The notes under the pieces were generated by a model that saw only the letters and a program-made list of their open reading frames with translations, was not told the DNA's origin and searched no databases. The translations under genes and the position numbers were made by a program. Shown piece after piece: positions 2,198-40,278 of a stretch of 41,628 nucleotides of DNA. Each line of letters begins with the position of its first letter. Within the stretch, counting starts at the first letter, position 1. This DNA is from Bacteroidaceae bacterium (GTDB taxonomy: Bacteria > Bacteroidota > Bacteroidia > Bacteroidales > Bacteroidaceae), in NCBI GenBank assembly GCA_017645655.1, contig JAGCNZ010000082.1, forward strand, positions 1-41,628, written 5' to 3'.

Positions 2198-2262
2198 TTC
2201 GGAAGTGTCTGGTTGCCCGATATCGCTTGCTGCGTCTTGGGGTGTGGCAGCTTTTTTTGTGT

Positions 2263-2350
2263 CATTTGACAGGTGAAGTTCGTTGCTCCTTCATGTAAGA
2301 GTGATTGCTCTTACATGAAGGAGCAATTGCTTCTACATGAAGGAGCAAAC
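2263..2350. repeat. 22-bp-period array A with CATG core
   Basis: Three consecutive 22-bp units at 2285-2306, 2307-2328 and 2329-2350 carry the core CATG at 2292, 2314 and 2336, exactly 22 bp apart. Unit 1 is inverted relative to units 2 and 3, so 2283-2301 and 2308-2326 form a perfect 19-bp inverted repeat with a 6-nt loop. A decayed unit may precede them at 2263-2284. The array lies between the end of the efflux gene and the promoter of the next gene. It belongs to the same period class as the arrays at 24814, 34646 and 40148. Confidence 0.8.
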
Positions 2351-2379
2351 AACTTAACTGCATTTTTTTTGCAAAACTC

Positions 2380-2410
2380 TTGGTGAAATGGGGGATTTTT
2401 GCTAATTTTG
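2380..2410 (+). promoter_or_regulatory. Bacteroidota-type promoter for the HU/winged-helix gene
   Basis: TAATTTTG at 2403-2410 matches the -7 consensus TAnnTTTG. A TTG at 2380-2382 lies 20 bp upstream in the -33 position. The start codon at 2436 follows about 25 bases downstream. Confidence 0.65.
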
Positions 2411-2435
2411 TGGAGCAAAATAAAACGATACGACT

Positions 2436-3062
2436 ATGCCTATAAGATTTTCGATTGCCAAGCGCGGCGTCCTTCCAACCGAGGGACAGCAGGAGAATGT
2501 GAGTGAAACGACTGATTTGGAGAGCCTTCGCGTCTTGTTGGAAAGCCCGCAGACGACGGATGCCATTGAGTTTCAGAGCAGCAACGGCAGGTTGCCTTCC
2601 GTGTTGCCCAAAGCCGAGTTGCTGGCGGCTCTGAGCACTTTGCAAAGGGTGATGGTTCATGAATTCGAGAAGGGCAATGCCGTTACACTGCCCGACATCG
2701 GCACTTTCCGCCTTTCCTTGAAGGGCAGCATCGAGGTGAAGGACGGTAACTATCACGGCAAGGACGTCCGCGTGGATGGCATTCTGTTCCGTCCCGACCG
2801 CGAGTTGCTGGCCGAGGTGCGTGGTTTCGAGGTGGACCAGGTTCCGTATGGATGGAAGTTCAATGCAGAAGAGTCGGAGGTCGAGGCACGCCTCGCCGAA
2901 CTCTTTGCCAGCAAAACATACATTACTCATAAGGATGTGTCGGTCGCTTTCGAACAGACCTTGACCCGCAACCGCGTTACAAAACTCTTGGGCAGGCTCG
3001 TTCGAGAGGGGCGTTTGGTTCGCGAAGGCAAGGGCACTCAGACGCGTTATCGCCTCGCATAG
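2436..3062 (+). CDS. HU-like DNA-binding protein with C-terminal winged helix
   Basis: A 208-residue protein. Residues 1-130 resemble the Bacteroidales HU-related family: an N-terminal strand (MPIRFSIAKRG), a helical region, then the HU signature GNAVTLPDIGTFRLSLKG, which forms the base of the DNA-binding arms. The last 65 residues (from about 140) have the pattern of a winged helix, with two helices, a recognition-type helix rich in Arg and Thr, and the wing GRLVREGKGTQTRYRLA. No signal peptide or membrane segment is seen, so it should act on the nucleoid. The gene has its own promoter. The HU assignment rests on the GIGTFRL-like motif; the winged helix is inferred from pattern only. Confidence 0.8.
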   Translation: MPIRFSIAKRGVLPTEGQQENVSETTDLESLRVLLESPQTTDAIEFQSSNGRLPSVLPKAELLAALSTLQRVMVHEFEKGNAVTLPDIGTFRLSLKGSIEVKDGNYHGKDVRVDGILFRPDRELLAEVRGFEVDQVPYGWKFNAEESEVEARLAELFASKTYITHKDVSVAFEQTLTRNRVTKLLGRLVREGRLVREGKGTQTRYRLA

Positions 3063-13595: not shown

Positions 13596-13596
13596 G

Positions 13597-13702
13597 AATG
13601 AAGAGTGAAGAATTAAGAATGAAGAATGAAGGTTGAAGAGTGAAGAATGAAGAATGAAGGATGACGAGTGAAGGATGAAGAGTGAAGAATGAAGGATGAA
13701 GT
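13597..13702. repeat. Minisatellite of 7-8 bp GAAGAATG-like units
   Basis: About 13 degenerate repeats of GAAGAATGAAGG-like words lie between ftsY and rimO. There is no open frame of note on either strand beyond the repeat itself. It probably varies in length between strains. Confidence 0.8.
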
Positions 13703-13745
13703 TGCCGTGATGTAAATTGCTAAATTACTAAATTGTAAATAAATA

Positions 13746-13806
13746 GTAAATTGTAAATAGTCAAATTGTAAATAAATTGTAAATTGTAAATTGTTAAATT
13801 GTAAAT
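13746..13806 (+). repeat. Two GTAAAT leader elements running into the rimO start
   Basis: Two 28-nt copies, at 13746-13773 and 13779-13806, of the element seen before ftsY and batB-batC. The second copy overlaps the first codons of rimO, and the TTG at 13791-13793 lies within it. Confidence 0.75.
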
Positions 13807-15098
13807 CCATTGACCTCATCACGCTCGGCTGCAGCAAGAACCTTGTTGACAGCGAGAAACTTATCCGTCAGCTCGAACTGAACGGCTTCAAGGTGACGCA
13901 CGACAGTGAAGACCCCGAGGGCGAGATAGCGATTGTGAATACCTGCGGTTTCATCGGCGATGCGAAGGAGGAAAGCATCAACATGATTCTCGAACTTGCA
14001 GAGCGAAAGAAGCAGGGCAAGCTCCGTCAGCTCATCGTGATGGGTTGCCTTTCGCAGCGCTACTTCGAGGAGTTGAAGGTGGAACTTCCAGAAGTGGACC
14101 GCTTCTATGGTAAGTTCGATTGGGAACAAATTATCACCGACCTGAAGGGCACTTATCACAAGGAAGCTTGCAACGAAAGGCGGCTAACGACACCTTCGCA
14201 CTATGCCTATTTGAAGATAAGCGAAGGCTGCAATCGGCATTGTGCTTATTGCGCCATTCCTATCATCACAGGCAAGCAAAAGTCCCATTCCATCGAGGAA
14301 ATCGTGGCTGAGGTTGAGGGCTTGGTTGCGAAGGGGGTCAAGGAATTTCAGGTCATTGCACAGGAGTTGACAGGCTACGGCACAGACCTCTACGGCAAGC
14401 AGATGATTGCGCCACTCATCGACCGCATAGCTCAGGTGCATGGCGTGGAATGGATCAGGCTGCACTATGGCTATCCAGCACATTTCCCGTGGGAACTCCT
14501 GCAAGTAATGAAGCGTCACAATAACGTATGCAGATACCTGGACATCGCCTTGCAGCACATCAGCGATAGTCAACTCTCGGCAATGCGCAGGCATATCACA
14601 AAGCAAGAAACCTACGATTTCATCGAGAAAATCCGGAGGGAAGTGCCCGGCATTCACCTTCGCACGACACTTATGGTTGGCTTTCCTGGCGAGACCGATG
14701 AGGATTTTCTGGAGCTTATTGATTTCGTGAAGTGGGCAAGGTTTGAGCGGATGGGTGCCTTTGCCTACAGCGAAGAGGAGGGAACGTACGCCGCTGAGCA
14801 CTATGAGGACAATGTCCCAGAAGAAGTTAAGCAGGCTCGACTGAGTAAACTCATGCGTATTCAGCAACAAATCAGTTCCGAAGTGCAAGAGAGCAAGGTT
14901 GGCCAAAGCATGAAAGTCATCATTGATCGCGAAGAGGGCGATTACTTTATAGGTCGCACGGAATTCGATTCACCGGAGGTTGACCCCGAAGTACTCATCA
15001 AGAAAGCTGATGCTCCCAACCTTAGGCCAGGATTATTCGTGCATGTAAATATAAAAAATGCCGATGAATTCGACCTTTTTGGATGTGTCGAGGAATAA
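13791..15098 (+). CDS. rimO: Ribosomal protein S12 methylthiotransferase RimO
   Basis: 435 residues. It is a radical-SAM enzyme that adds a methylthio group to an aspartate of ribosomal protein S12. The N-terminal UPF0004 domain has the three cysteines of the auxiliary 4Fe-4S cluster (C14, C52, C86; contexts TLGCSKNLVDSE, NTCGFIG, MGCLSQR). The radical-SAM motif is C147, C151, C154 (CNRHCAYCAIP). A C-terminal TRAM domain follows (about 365-435). No ATG exists before the conserved TLGCSKN; the frame opens only after a stop at 13773. TTG at 13791 or ATT at 13809 are the possible starts. The TTG is within a repeat element, so the leader repeat seems to supply the start codon. Confidence 0.95.
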   Translation: MLNCKSIDLITLGCSKNLVDSEKLIRQLELNGFKVTHDSEDPEGEIAIVNTCGFIGDAKEESINMILELAERKKQGKLRQLIVMGCLSQRYFEELKVELPEVDRFYGKFDWEQIITDLKGTYHKEACNERRLTTPSHYAYLKISEGCNRHCAYCAIPIITGKQKSHSIEEIVAEVEGLVAKGVKEFQVIAQELTGYGTDLYGKQMIAPLIDRIAQVHGVEWIRLHYGYPAHFPWELLQVMKRHNNVCRYLDIALQHISDSQLSAMRRHITKQETYDFIEKIRREVPGIHLRTTLMVGFPGETDEDFLELIDFVKWARFERMGAFAYSEEEGTYAAEHYEDNVPEEVKQARLSKLMRIQQQISSEVQESKVGQSMKVIIDREEGDYFIGRTEFDSPEVDPEVLIKKADAPNLRPGLFVHVNIKNADEFDLFGCVEE

Positions 15099-18573: not shown

Positions 18574-18848
18574 CGAAAAAAAGGCAACAGTAGATTGTAA
18601 AATCAAACTTTTATGAAAAATTTTTTGCTTTAGGGGTGAGCCAAGCATGTGTGGATTTATGAAAGTCCTCGTGTGGATTTTTCGTTCCTGTCGAGACGGG
18701 CACGATTCAGGGTATTGAGCAGTCCTCTCAGTCTCGCTTCGGAGGGGCTTTATTTGTTTCAGGCGGTCTGGGCTGTGGTTCGCTTTGCACTTTTTGCTGC
18801 CTTTTTAACAAAGTTAAACATCGCTATAACTTTATTTATCATTTCTGG

Positions 18849-23109: not shown

Positions 23110-24813
23110 ATGTTTCGCTTTGCAAGTCCACAATATCTCTACTTGTTGTTAGTGCTCGTGGCACTAGCAGCTATACATTATTATATTATATACAAGAAGA
23201 AAAGGCAGGTGAAAAGCTTCGGCGACCCTGAGCTGACCAGGCAACTTTTCTTGGGCGTATCGCGTTGGAGGCCAGAGGTGAAGTTCTGGCTCACGATGCT
23301 TGCCCTTGCTTCTTTCATCGTTGCTTTGGCCCGTCCGCAGTTCGGCACACGCCTCGACACCCGCGAACGCACTGGCATAGAGGCCATCATAGCACTCGAC
23401 GTCAGCAACTCCATGCTGGCTGAGGACGTGAAGCCTAACCGCTTGGAGAAGGCGAAGATGATGGTCAGCAACATGGTGGACGGCATGAGGGACGACAAAA
23501 TCGGCCTGATTGTCTTCGCCGGACAAGCCTTCGTGCAGTTGCCCATCACCAGCGACTACGTAAGTGCCAAGATGTTCCTCGAGACCATCTCGCCTTCGAT
23601 GATGAGCGTTCAGGGTACAGACATAGCGGAAGCCATCAACCTTTCAATGCGTAGTTTTACTCAGCAGGAAGATGTCTCCCGCGCTATCTTCGTGATAACC
23701 GACGGCGAAGACAACGAGGCTCGAGGTGTTGAAGCAGCAAAGCAAGCCGCAGCAAAAGGCGTCCGTGTCTATGTGCTGGGCATCGGCAATCCCGGCGGCG
23801 CACCCATTCCCATCCCGGGCACCGGGCAATACATCATCGACGACGAGGGCAACACAGTCATCTCGAAGTTGAGCGAGGAGATGTGTCGCGAGATAGCGAC
23901 GGCAGGAAACGGTTCCTACATCTATGTCGACAACAGCAGTTCGGCTCAGAAGAAGCTGTCGGAGCAGGTTGACCGACTCGCCAAAGCTAAGATGGAGAGC
24001 CAGATTTATAGCGAATACGACGAGCAGTTTCAGGGCTTCATCCTCATCGGACTCCTGCTTTTGTTGCTTGACGTCCTGCTCCTCGAAAGGGAAAGCAAAT
24101 CGACCTGGCTCAGCAACCTCTTCCGCAGAGGACGTCCGGCAGCCGCACTCTTCTTGTTGATTTTCAGCATGACGGCAATGGCTCAGACCGACAGAGACTA
24201 TATCCGCCGCGGCAATCGCCTGATGCGTGACAGCGTTTACGACAAAGCTCAGGTCGAATACCAGAAAGCCATCGAGAAGGACAACACGAATCCCATCTCG
24301 CACTTCAACCTCGGAAACGCTCTCCTCTATCAGAACAAGGCTGAAGACGCCATGAAGGAGTACGAGACGGCAGCCCGATTGGAGAAGGACAAGATGCGTC
24401 TGGCTCAGATTTATCACAACATGGGCGTCGTCCTGCAGAGTGCCAAGCAGTTCGACAAGGCCGTAGCTTGCTACAGGAACTCCCTGCGAAACGACCCCAC
24501 GAACGATGAGACGCGCTATAACTACGCCCTGAGTCTCTTCCAGTTGAAGAAGAATCAAGGCGGTCAGGACAATCAGGACCAGCAGAAGGACGACAAGGGT
24601 CAGGACGAGAAGAAGGAGCAAGAACAGCAACAACAGAAACAGGAACAAGATAAGAAAGACGAGCAGCAGCAACAGCCTCAGCCCGAGCAAATGAGCCGCG
24701 AGAACGCCGAACAGATGCTCAATGCCGCGATGCAGGACGAGAAAGCTACTCAGGAAAAGATTCAGAAAGCACAGCAAAAACGTCAGCAAAAACAGCTTCA
24801 GAAACAATGGTAA
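23110..24813 (+). CDS. Fused BatB-BatC: VWA protein joined to a TPR protein
   Basis: 567 residues in one uninterrupted frame. The BatB half (1-~330) has two N-terminal helices (SPQYLYLLLVLVALAAIHYY, WLTMLALASFIVALARP), a VWA domain with DVSNS (D97, S99, S101) and FVITDGEDNE, and a last helix (FILIGLLLLLLDVLLLE, about 308-325). Then follows what looks like a former signal peptide of BatC (AAALFLLIFSMTAMA, about 344-358), TPR repeats (about 360-480: DYIRRGNRLMRDSVYDKAQVEYQKAIEKD, HFNLGNALLYQNKAEDAMKEY) and a Gln/Lys-rich tail. In Bacteroides the two are separate genes. The fusion should anchor the TPR in the periplasm next to the VWA domain. Confidence 0.92.
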   Translation: MFRFASPQYLYLLLVLVALAAIHYYIIYKKKRQVKSFGDPELTRQLFLGVSRWRPEVKFWLTMLALASFIVALARPQFGTRLDTRERTGIEAIIALDVSNSMLAEDVKPNRLEKAKMMVSNMVDGMRDDKIGLIVFAGQAFVQLPITSDYVSAKMFLETISPSMMSVQGTDIAEAINLSMRSFTQQEDVSRAIFVITDGEDNEARGVEAAKQAAAKGVRVYVLGIGNPGGAPIPIPGTGQYIIDDEGNTVISKLSEEMCREIATAGNGSYIYVDNSSSAQKKLSEQVDRLAKAKMESQIYSEYDEQFQGFILIGLLLLLLDVLLLERESKSTWLSNLFRRGRPAAALFLLIFSMTAMAQTDRDYIRRGNRLMRDSVYDKAQVEYQKAIEKDNTNPISHFNLGNALLYQNKAEDAMKEYETAARLEKDKMRLAQIYHNMGVVLQSAKQFDKAVACYRNSLRNDPTNDETRYNYALSLFQLKKNQGGQDNQDQQKDDKGQDEKKEQEQQQQKQEQDKKDEQQQQPQPEQMSRENAEQMLNAAMQDEKATQEKIQKAQQKRQQKQLQKQW

Positions 24814-24935
24814 ACGTGACGGGTTCAAACGACACACGTGTCGTTGCTAAATTACACACGTGTAGTTGGCAATTTACACACGTGTAGTTGGCGATTTACT
24901 AACGTGTCGTTTTCCGACTATCCACGTCAAGTTGA
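24814..24935. repeat. 22-bp-period array B with ACGTG cores
   Basis: ACGTG at 24814, 24836, 24858, 24880 and 24902, then ACGTC at 24924: six cores, exactly 22 bp apart. Two central units share ACGTGTAGTTGGC and a following ATTTAC. The head GGTTCAAACGACAC resembles the heads of the arrays at 34646 and 40148. It lies between batB-batC and batD. Confidence 0.9.
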
Positions 24936-24950
24936 AAGAGACTCCATAAG

Positions 24951-26795
24951 ATGAAAAGACTTTACACGATATTCACACTCTTATTCCTTGCGCTAAGCTC
25001 TGTCTTCTCGCAAGTTACGCTCAAAGTTCAGGCACCTTCCCAAGCCGAAGTAGGCCAAAGAATTCGCATCAGTTATGTCGCTAACACGCAGGAGATAGAA
25101 GATTTCCAGATTGGCAGCTTCGAGGGTTTCAACGTCCTTTACGGCCCCAGCACGAGTCGCTCGAGCAATTTCTCAATGGTGAACGGCCGCACAACTCAGA
25201 GCAGTTCCACAACCTTCACCTACACCGTCGTACCTATCACGGAGGGAACACTCAAGGTTCCTGCCGCTACAATCAAGGTCGACGGGAAATCCGTTAAGAG
25301 CGGAACGGCCAGCATCGAAGTGTTGCCGGCCAGCCAGCAACAGAGCCAACAGCCTCAGAACCAACAGCAAGGCGGTAATCCTCGCCAACAGCGTCAGCAA
25401 CAAGGCGCTTCCAGTTCCGGTCAGATAAGCGGCAGCGAGCTCTACATGACTGTGACGGCCAACCGCAAGAAAATCTACGAGCAGGAGGCCGTGATGCTGA
25501 CCTACAAGCTCTACACGCTGGTGAACATCCAACAAATATCAGGCGATATGCCTCAGATAGACGGTTGTCACGTTCAGGAACTCGAGCGTTCTACACAAAT
25601 GTCGCTCAAGTACGAACGCGTCAACGGCCGTAACTACGGCACAGCCGTCTGGAAGCAGTACGTCGTCTTCCCGCAGAAGACGGGCAAAATCAAGATTCCC
25701 AGCATCACTTTCGACACGCAGGTTGAGGTACAGAACCACTCGATGGACCCCTTCGACATCTTCTTCGGCGGCGGAAGTCTCTCGCAAATGGTGCGCAAGC
25801 AAATCGTCGCGCCAGCCATCGAGATTGACGTTATGCCCCTCCCCACACCGAAGCCCGACAACTTCTCGGGTGCCGTGGGCAAGTTCTCGGTGTCTGCCAC
25901 GCTGACGCCCGACCTGGTGAATGCCAACGATGCTGCAACCCTCCGACTCGTCGTCTCTGGTCAGGGCAACATGAAACTCATGAAGGCTCCGACGATTCGA
26001 TTCCCTCAAGACTTCGAAGTCTATGACCCCAAAGAGAATAACAAGACGCAAAATACGGCAACAGGCTCAAAAGGAAATATCACTTACGACTATGTCGTCG
26101 TGCCCCGTCACGGCGGAAAATTCTCGATTCCACCGGTTGAATTCTGCTATTTCGACCCCGAACAGGAGCGATACAACACGGTTCGGACGGACTCTTTCCA
26201 CCTCGCAGTTGCCAAAGCAAAGGGTCAGCCGGTCGCTTACACTCGCGAACAGGAAGATCTTAACGTGCTGAGTAACGACATTCGCTTCATCAAGTTGGGC
26301 GAGTTGGAGAGCGAAGACGAGGATGACTTCTTCGGAACTTCCTCATATTGGCTTACTTACCTGCTCCTCTTCATTGCCTTCATCGCTGCTTTCCTCTGGT
26401 TGAGACGTCAACAGAAACTCAATCCGAACTCTTGGAGCGTGAAGGGTAAGAAGGCGGGCAAAGTGGCGTCTCGTCGTCTGAAGCAGGCTTCGAAACTCAT
26501 GCACACCAAAGATGATGCCGCTTTCTACGACGAGGTGATGCGCGCTCTGCTCGGCTATGCAGGCGATAAGCTGTCTCTTCCGACCAATGAACTCAATAAG
26601 GAGAACGTCATCAGCAAGCTCACGTCAAGGGGCGTAGAACAGCAAGTGGTCGATTCCTTCATTGCCGTTCTGAGCGATTGCGAGTTCGCGCGATATGCTC
26701 CGACTGCCGATGCGAACCTTGCAAAAGAAAAGATTTACCAGCAGGCCTCAGATGTGATTACTCAGATGAACGCCTCCCTCAAGTCACACAAATAA
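24951..26795 (+). CDS. batD: BatD: large periplasmic aerotolerance protein
   Basis: 614 residues. Signal peptide [20 protein letters not shown], then beta-sandwich domains in the periplasm: [48 protein letters not shown] is the typical BatD beginning. A Gln/Asn-rich stretch (about 125-155) links the first and second domains. One membrane helix ([19 protein letters not shown], about 466-485) leads to a helical cytoplasmic tail with [29 protein letters not shown]. BatD is thought to be the scaffold linking the VWA and TPR Bat proteins. The reading frame is intact, and the gene is preceded by the 22-bp array B rather than by a clear promoter. Confidence 0.93.
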
Positions 26796-34621: not shown

Positions 34622-34645
34622 AGGAATGCCGTGTCGGAAAATCTG

Positions 34646-34776
34646 GCGTGCTTAGTTTTCAAACGACACGTGGGTTAATTGAAATTATCACGTGGGTAAA
34701 ATGAATTTATCACGTGTAATATTTCAAATATTACGTGGGTAAATCGCAAACATCACGTGCCATGTTTGCTCACTTC
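34646..34776. repeat. 22-bp-period array C with ACGTG cores
   Basis: Cores at 34646 (GCGTG), 34668, 34690, 34712, 34733 and 34755 are spaced 22, 22, 22, 21 and 22 bp. The typical unit is ACGTGGGTAAAATGAATTTA plus two bases. It sits between the helicase stop and the converging GLUG-protein stop. Units and flanks match array D at 40148. Confidence 0.88.
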
Positions 34777-40147: not shown

Positions 40148-40278
40148 TTGTGTCGTGTTTTCAAACGTCACGTGGGTAAAATGAAATTATTACGTGTAAT
40201 ATTTCAAATATCACGTGGGTAAAATGAATTTATCACGTGGGTAAATTTCAAACATCGTGTGCCGCGTTTGCCAATCAG
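40148..40278. repeat. 22-bp-period array D with ACGTG cores
   Basis: Cores at 40170, 40192, 40213 and 40235, with decayed cores at 40148 and 40257; spacing is 22, 21, 22 and 22 bp. The units match array C almost base for base but in a different order. It lies between the lipoprotein gene and the small secreted-protein gene, 5.5 kb from array C. Confidence 0.88.

Follow-up and report, generated by a model that had tools for sequence, protein, structure and literature searches.

Palindrome lattices with a 22-bp pitch scattered between the genes of a Bacteroidaceae bacterium and its relatives

In a Bacteroidaceae bacterium, the gap between two genes of the bat operon (whose labels here include batB, batC, and batE) holds a row of near-identical cores at a constant step of 22 bp, which raises the question of whether this row, termed array B here, is a local signal of the operon, a product of chance or decay, or part of something wider. 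We find that array B belongs to a class of palindrome lattices with a 22-bp pitch that are scattered through the intergenic DNA of its own bacterium and of the relatives. The window, i.e., the whole stretch of 41,628 nucleotides that was analyzed, corresponds to contig C82 in a draft genome of 2.74 Mb. By batB/C, the closest named relatives of this genome are uncultured Bacteroidaceae/Prevotellaceae, of which nearly all are metagenome bins and many come from ruminants.

Array B and the other lattices of the window

The features on which the analysis rests are the following:
2283..2353, no strand assigned: CATG-core 22-bp palindrome lattice with a CAATTG-like spacer center, overlapping a predicted ORF
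18645..18683, no strand assigned: degenerate trace of two units, located upstream of moxR and too weak to reach the threshold of the orthologous-gap scoring
23110..24813, plus strand: fused batB-batC ORF (VWA + TPR, 567 aa), whose TAA stop overlaps the first core
24813..24935, no strand assigned: array B, six rows at 22-bp steps
24951..26795, plus strand: batD ORF (614 aa), whose start codon lies 28 bp past the first base of the last core
about 34645..34764, no strand assigned: sister array that contains the species-specific unit (minus strand: CACGTGATAAATTCATTTTACCCACGTG) as well as a 21-bp unit at its center
about 40152..40266, no strand assigned: sister array of the same composite type as that at 34645..34764

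The neighbors of array B encode a MoxR-like AAA protein, a DUF58/VWA protein, a protein with weak, below-cut-off Pfam similarity to BatD, and BatA, and further a fused BatB-BatC (VWA+TPR), BatD, and a TPR/SH3 protein. The original prediction placed the array between batB-batC and batD, where it indeed fills the gap from stop to start. Of the six ACGTG cores that it listed at exact 22-bp steps, five stand (24814, 24836, 24858, 24880, and 24902), and the sixth, at 24924, is in lattice register and differs from ACGTG, reading ACGTC (CCACGTCAAG). As six-letter words, the cores are AACGTG at 24813 and 24901, CACGTG at 24835, 24857, and 24879, and CACGTC at 24923; the 22-bp rows in order are AACGTGACGGGTTCAAACGACA, CACGTGTCGTTGCTAAATTACA, CACGTGTAGTTGGCAATTTACA, CACGTGTAGTTGGCGATTTACT, AACGTGTCGTTTTCCGACTATC, and CACGTCAAGTTGAAAG, and the bases between the cores are partly conserved, as had been claimed. 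Tandem Repeats Finder independently detects the array (24832-24911, period 22, score 104), and it is absent from the output of another repeat search run on the window. In 300 dinucleotide-Markov simulations of the window, runs of ACGTG at 22-bp steps reached a length of two in five simulations and of one in the other 295. The window has no surplus of single ACGTG words (84 observed vs 80.5 expected), so that the signal of array B lies in the spacing. A simple scan of 24301-25000 found no instance of a loose Bacteroidota promoter motif.

The lattice at 2283 overlaps a predicted ORF (2262-2930, minus strand) without a Pfam match and is therefore probably intergenic. It is conserved in sequence, at 89% over 177 bp in the relative G486 and at 74% over 174 bp in G484 (the matching stretches being L193 19451-19627 and L186 2994-3167), and hence not every lattice turns over fast. 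CATG lattices resembling this type also occur in G490, G491, and L043. Upstream of moxR, where the window has only the two-unit trace, G484 and G487 carry clear 22-bp arrays. The window further contains, at 13596-13806, intergenic low-complexity arrays with the 7-bp units GAATGAA and TGTAAAT.

A 22-bp pitch across the genome and the family

Throughout the genome, the triple ACGTG-N17-ACGTG-N17-ACGTG has 140/134 matches on the two strands vs 0/1 for the reversed pattern, many sites being counted twice, once per strand, as CACGTG is self-complementary; the 22-bp spacing is thus far above chance. In the intergenic part of 369 kb of this genome, lag hits number 54 at 22, 10 at 21, 39 at 43, and 16 at 44, with 0 to 3 at each of the other lags from 13 to 59. 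The intergenic ACGT-ACGT distances of the genome samples and the window behave alike (118 at 22, 42 at 21, 3 at 20, 0 at 23, 7 at 24, and 19 at 27), and the pairs that by our rough gene calls are not wholly intergenic peak at 22 too (24, followed by 16 at 43). These calls were longest ORFs, made without a gene finder, by which the 2283 lattice was masked and went uncounted in the orthologous-gap scoring described below. Of the intergenic bases sampled, roughly 18% lie in lag-22 arrays (in stretches from contigs with matches), and the density of these arrays, 127 per Mb, may be too high since the sampled contigs were chosen from the list of triple-pattern matches. Nine of the 48 array gaps of this genome are without an ACGT lattice, some of the nine being AT-rich and doubtful. 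A coding repeat was rejected, as 22 is not a multiple of three, unlike nearly all genic tandem periods in close loci, and an assembly artefact of metagenome-derived genomes is unlikely, the arrays recurring in many genomes including the nearly complete G110 and G053.

The class to which array B belongs is genome-wide and reaches other genera of the family: the ACGTG triple occurs in 36/60 same-genus relatives, in 72/399 family genomes sampled (13/30 genera, the genome of array B included), and in 1/40 genomes of other families of the order. A scan free of any assumed core, covering one stretch per genus from 17 other genera of the family (that of G145 picked for its reversed-pattern count), gave lag-22 hits in 5/17, with six hits in all (one of them AT-rich and doubtful) and at most two at every other lag. 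The reversed-pattern control is nonzero in some relatives (e.g., G011, G145, G183, and G261), seemingly because other cores occupy the lattice in those genomes. More distant relatives show possible intergenic arrays with periods of 21 bp and 23 bp (L062 about 2843, L087 about 11084), and the pitch may accordingly shift between lineages.

Conserved places, changing letters, and symmetry

The batC-batD gap of most close relatives keeps a 22-bp lattice with other letters (e.g., units GTGAAGTTGCCCAACTTCAC+AC, CACGCCTAGTTTGCCAATTAGA, and CACTATACGTTTGCCATCGTCG), so that neither outcome by which the original prediction would have fallen, spacing at chance level or loss in relatives, was observed. 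Among 67 loci surveyed, 12 yielded no gap and 30 have a gap of at most 60 bp, as is mostly the case in the more distant relatives. In most close relatives, the length of the gap changes by whole units: 13 of the 25 gaps above 60 bp equal 6 modulo 22 (94, 116, 138 nine times, 160, and 182), two equal 5, and 10 fall elsewhere. Five off-register gaps still hold a lag-22 array (L049, L050, L056, L057, and L060), although the start codon used for L060 and L050 may be wrong.

Orthologous-gap scoring extended the comparison to six array gaps and 16 arrayless gaps of the genome of array B, matched in eight close genomes and covering gaps from 50 to 900 bp. A lag-22 array is present in 23/30 relative gaps at loci orthologous to the arrays vs 11/78 elsewhere (Fisher p=1.2e-9, a statistic that the kinship of the species inflates, as it does that of the covariation below), whereas at the comparison lags (17-20, 24-27) the threshold is reached in 0/30 array-orthologous and 4/78 control gaps. 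Three of the 23 positives repeat the sequence of a neighboring gap (G484 and G485 at 40165; G488 at L105 7710), and 14 of the 78 control gaps are too short to score; with the repeats taken as misses and the short controls dropped, the figures are 20/30 vs 11/64 (p=4e-6). Of the 11 control positives, two or more (those of G484 and G487 in the gap ahead of moxR) are counted twice. By locus, the positives are 8/8 in batC-batD, 7/8 at 34.6 kb (two of them, G484/G485, weak at 0.59), 2/7 at 40.2 kb (only G484 and G485), and 2/2, 1/2 (not independent), and 3/3 at the remaining three. As the G484/G485 sequence is already counted at 34.6 kb, the 40.2-kb locus has no independent orthologous array. Different letters at one place are seen at L105 14374, where G484 has palindromic CCCCTATAGGGG units, G486 units resembling GTCACACGTGAAGTTTGCCA, and G488 units resembling GTTAAGTCGGTCAACTTAAC. 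Spacing is thus held more strictly than sequence, as originally proposed, on the evidence of the ACGT distances, the gap lengths modulo 22, and the differing letters; neither chance (in view of the shuffled windows and the reversed pattern) nor plain decay (in view of the orthologous gaps) fits well. The retention of pitch, and often of place, while the letters change points to a function at the level of DNA or to a maintenance process. A different dispersed repeat, GCACTAAAA.G..CGACTTGGTGCTAA, lies beside arrays at L105 3999-4025 (plus strand) and 14515-14541 (minus strand), and ~44-bp matches to this stretch recur at many places in G484 and G485.

The batC-batD unit approximates AAC-N4-CACG-N4-GTT plus a 4-bp spacer center, often TGCC. 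The N4 arms around the CACG axis are Watson-Crick complementary at 0.592 vs 0.359 for shuffled partners, a value reached in 0/2000 shuffles, over 46 distinct units from the last four units of each of 15 loci whose relatedness was not controlled; the AAC/GTT half-sites are conserved without covariation of their own (0.696 vs 0.709). Over 81 arrays, mean palindromy is 0.590 vs 0.520 for column-permuted units, with 65 arrays more palindromic than the mean of that null and 16 not so; the dominant unit of the genome of array B is weakly palindromic, and its composite includes a 21-bp step. One dyad axis in a tandem repeat entails a second axis half a period away, i.e., an axis every 11 bp, and the pitch of 22 bp is, as the original prediction had it, close to two helical turns. 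Several palindromes share this pitch within one genome, namely CACGTG, CATG/CAATTG (window 2283), and GGACTCGAGTCC/CCACGGTGG in the genome of array B, and CCCCTATAGGGG and CACGTG-like units in G484. Lattices combining GGACTCGAGTCC and CCACGGTGG at 22 bp were observed at L106 18389-18513, L114 14193-14620, and L185 about 7391 (the genome of array B and G485). The sharing of one pitch by unrelated palindromes argues against a single sequence-specific protein as the binder. A single sequence-specific regulator of the bat operon is likewise unlikely, given that the class is genome-wide and the cores differ, and parS/ParB, suggested by the CACGTG core, was set aside as the flanks and core variation do not fit the parS sequence.

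Hairpins that act in transcripts, in mRNA stability or termination, would fit an array inside an operon, and the sense strand of array B does fold somewhat better than shuffles (z=–2.04, 10/200 shuffles as good; other strand z=–0.22). In the relatives, moreover, arrays are commoner in tandem (51/162) and convergent (18/43) than in divergent gaps (5/40), a deficit that speaks against a wholly neutral placement and may point to a function downstream of genes, including one exerted by RNA; this trend is absent from the genome of array B (divergent 10/37, tandem 26/142, convergent 8/27). Against transcripts stands the lack of a sense-strand G·U excess: G·T vs A·C counts on the sense strand of tandem gaps are 48/56 in the relatives and 69/69 in the genome of array B, those in the tandem gaps of other genomes 132/161, and those in batC-batD 21/20 at the core axis and 18/13 at the spacer axis. 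The composites of this genome are oriented with the genes in 10 cases and opposite to them in nine, Rfam models have no match to the window at the gathering threshold, and the 34.7-kb array folds better against shuffles on the minus than on the plus strand (z=–3.37 vs –2.49; the 40.2-kb array has plus –1.57 and minus –1.91). Without G·U excess or strand preference, DNA is favored over RNA, and the RNA-level repeat entertained in the original prediction is not borne out.

What the lattice may be

Among known systems, REP/BIME elements are described as intergenic, palindromic, species-specific, and present in more than 100 copies per genome, with alternating orientations at regular spacing and a location mostly between unidirectional and convergent genes (PMC2817692, PMC3733652). 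The lattice is similarly intergenic, palindromic, and in more than 100 copies (the copy number being that of the genome of array B), but it differs in the absence of a RAYT/Y1 match from that genome, in its strict 22-bp tandem pitch, and in placing unrelated sequences on one pitch. Two units of array B contain GTAG and the last one contains CGTC, and inspection found no constant GTAG/CGTC end tag in the composite or unit consensus.

The original prediction knew of no named Bacteroidota element of this kind; a partly comparable one, BrickBuilt of Porphyromonas gingivalis, is in print, and the lattice itself is undescribed in the literature searched, where subscription journals were thinly covered. 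BrickBuilt consists of dispersed, imperfect intergenic 23-nt tandem repeats with predicted stem-loops and strain-variable unit numbers, amounting to 19 elements per genome, many with a leader/tail and IS5-like terminal inverted repeats, and its sequence is confined to its species and near kin; according to the same paper, 22-nt tandem repeats have also been described in P. gingivalis W83 without exact locations (PMC4596501). Both are dispersed Bacteroidota intergenic tandem repeats of near-equal unit length (PMC4596501), but the lattice of our genome has a period of 22, then 21, with 23 at zero, its 37 composite flanks show no common leader/tail on inspection, and it comprises many more short rows whose letters vary by species and locus.

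Our leading, though tentative, interpretation is that of a REP/BIME-like DNA lattice, without RAYT in the genome of array B, serving as a putative platform for helically phased binding; repeats of a selfish kind, a mutational minisatellite, and RNA follow in that order. Acting as duplex DNA, the element would present a row of identically facing dyad sites with an axis about every helical turn, which dimeric or structure-reading DNA-binding proteins might bind next to one another, as has been proposed for REP/BIME rows elsewhere (as protein binding sites and in chromosome organization); the N4 arms, which differ between species, tend to stay complementary. The binding, its protein partner, and any benefit to the cell are inferred.

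Selfish or mobile repeats of the REP/MITE kind, whose units spread by copying without host function and whose conserved places would be old insertions, are a possible but rather doubtful alternative. The unit CACGTGATAAATTNATTTTACCCACGTG (up to three mismatches) is private, with 186+196 = 382 matches in one genome, none in the eight close-relative genomes (0/8; the closest having 98% identity in the best BatB/C protein segment and 82-84% DNA identity at another gene), one match in the 36 same-genus genomes (1/36), and none found in 24 genomes of other families. The 37 sampled composites share one 22-21-22 inner consensus within unrelated flanks and have outer units that resemble the older GTTTnnnAAAC type, with an old and a new half joined in some. 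Array B itself belongs to the older type, its best other match in the same genome being 73% identical. Spreading by copying also accords with the occurrence of both orientations and all gap types, with the 40.2-kb composite array being without an independent orthologous array in seven relatives, and with Y1 transposase matches (PF01797) in 12/36 same-genus genomes, several marginal and some in array-bearing genomes (G003, G013, G027, and G035). Yet PF01797 (Y1/RAYT) has no match in the genome of array B (G000, 84% complete), in 24/36 same-genus genomes, or in the array-rich G005, G008, G009, G012, G018, and G024 (incomplete genomes), so that a RAYT-driven REP is unsupported in the genome of array B. 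The alignment of the 37 composites likewise shows no sharp common ends, and several of the same loci are occupied in the relatives by 22-bp arrays of different sequence. A phage or plasmid origin of the composite was rejected, its exact pattern being absent from viral contigs and a 126-bp query having no plasmid or phage match. The binding platform and the selfish repeat can overlap, in that the lattice loci may be old, with one unit spreading through them.

In bacterial minisatellites (VNTR), tandem units are gained and lost whole, and the units of the lattice also come and go whole. A purely mutational origin, in which slippage adds or removes 22-bp units, template switching at hairpins makes the arms complementary, and pitch and palindromy are by-products, would account for the whole-unit length changes, the complementary arms, and unrelated sequences at one pitch. 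We consider it unlikely, as it leaves unexplained why 22 bp is common to unrelated sequences, why the ACGTG form is absent from 39/40 genomes of the other families of the order, why positions persist, and why one unit is common to hundreds of sites in one genome; unlike VNTRs, the lattice keeps one pitch over unrelated sequences and loci, has dyad symmetry, and shares positions between species. RNA hairpins, on the strand and folding evidence given above, are improbable.

Beyond the putative binding platform, we offer as a long shot that 22-bp palindrome lattices are preserved at inherited intergenic sites by a maintenance system that tolerates, or even causes, the turnover of their letters, such that pitch and symmetry would be what is inherited. 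Its reader might be a structure-reading protein (of shape or cruciform) or paralogous dimers of one 22-bp geometry, or there might instead be a writer, i.e., an enzyme that works in 22-bp steps, adding DNA or overwriting it. Should a protein bind the lattice, rumen and other Bacteroidota would have in it a DNA feature that spans the chromosome; should none bind, the lattice would clearly exemplify intergenic repeats in which pitch, and often place, outlast sequence.
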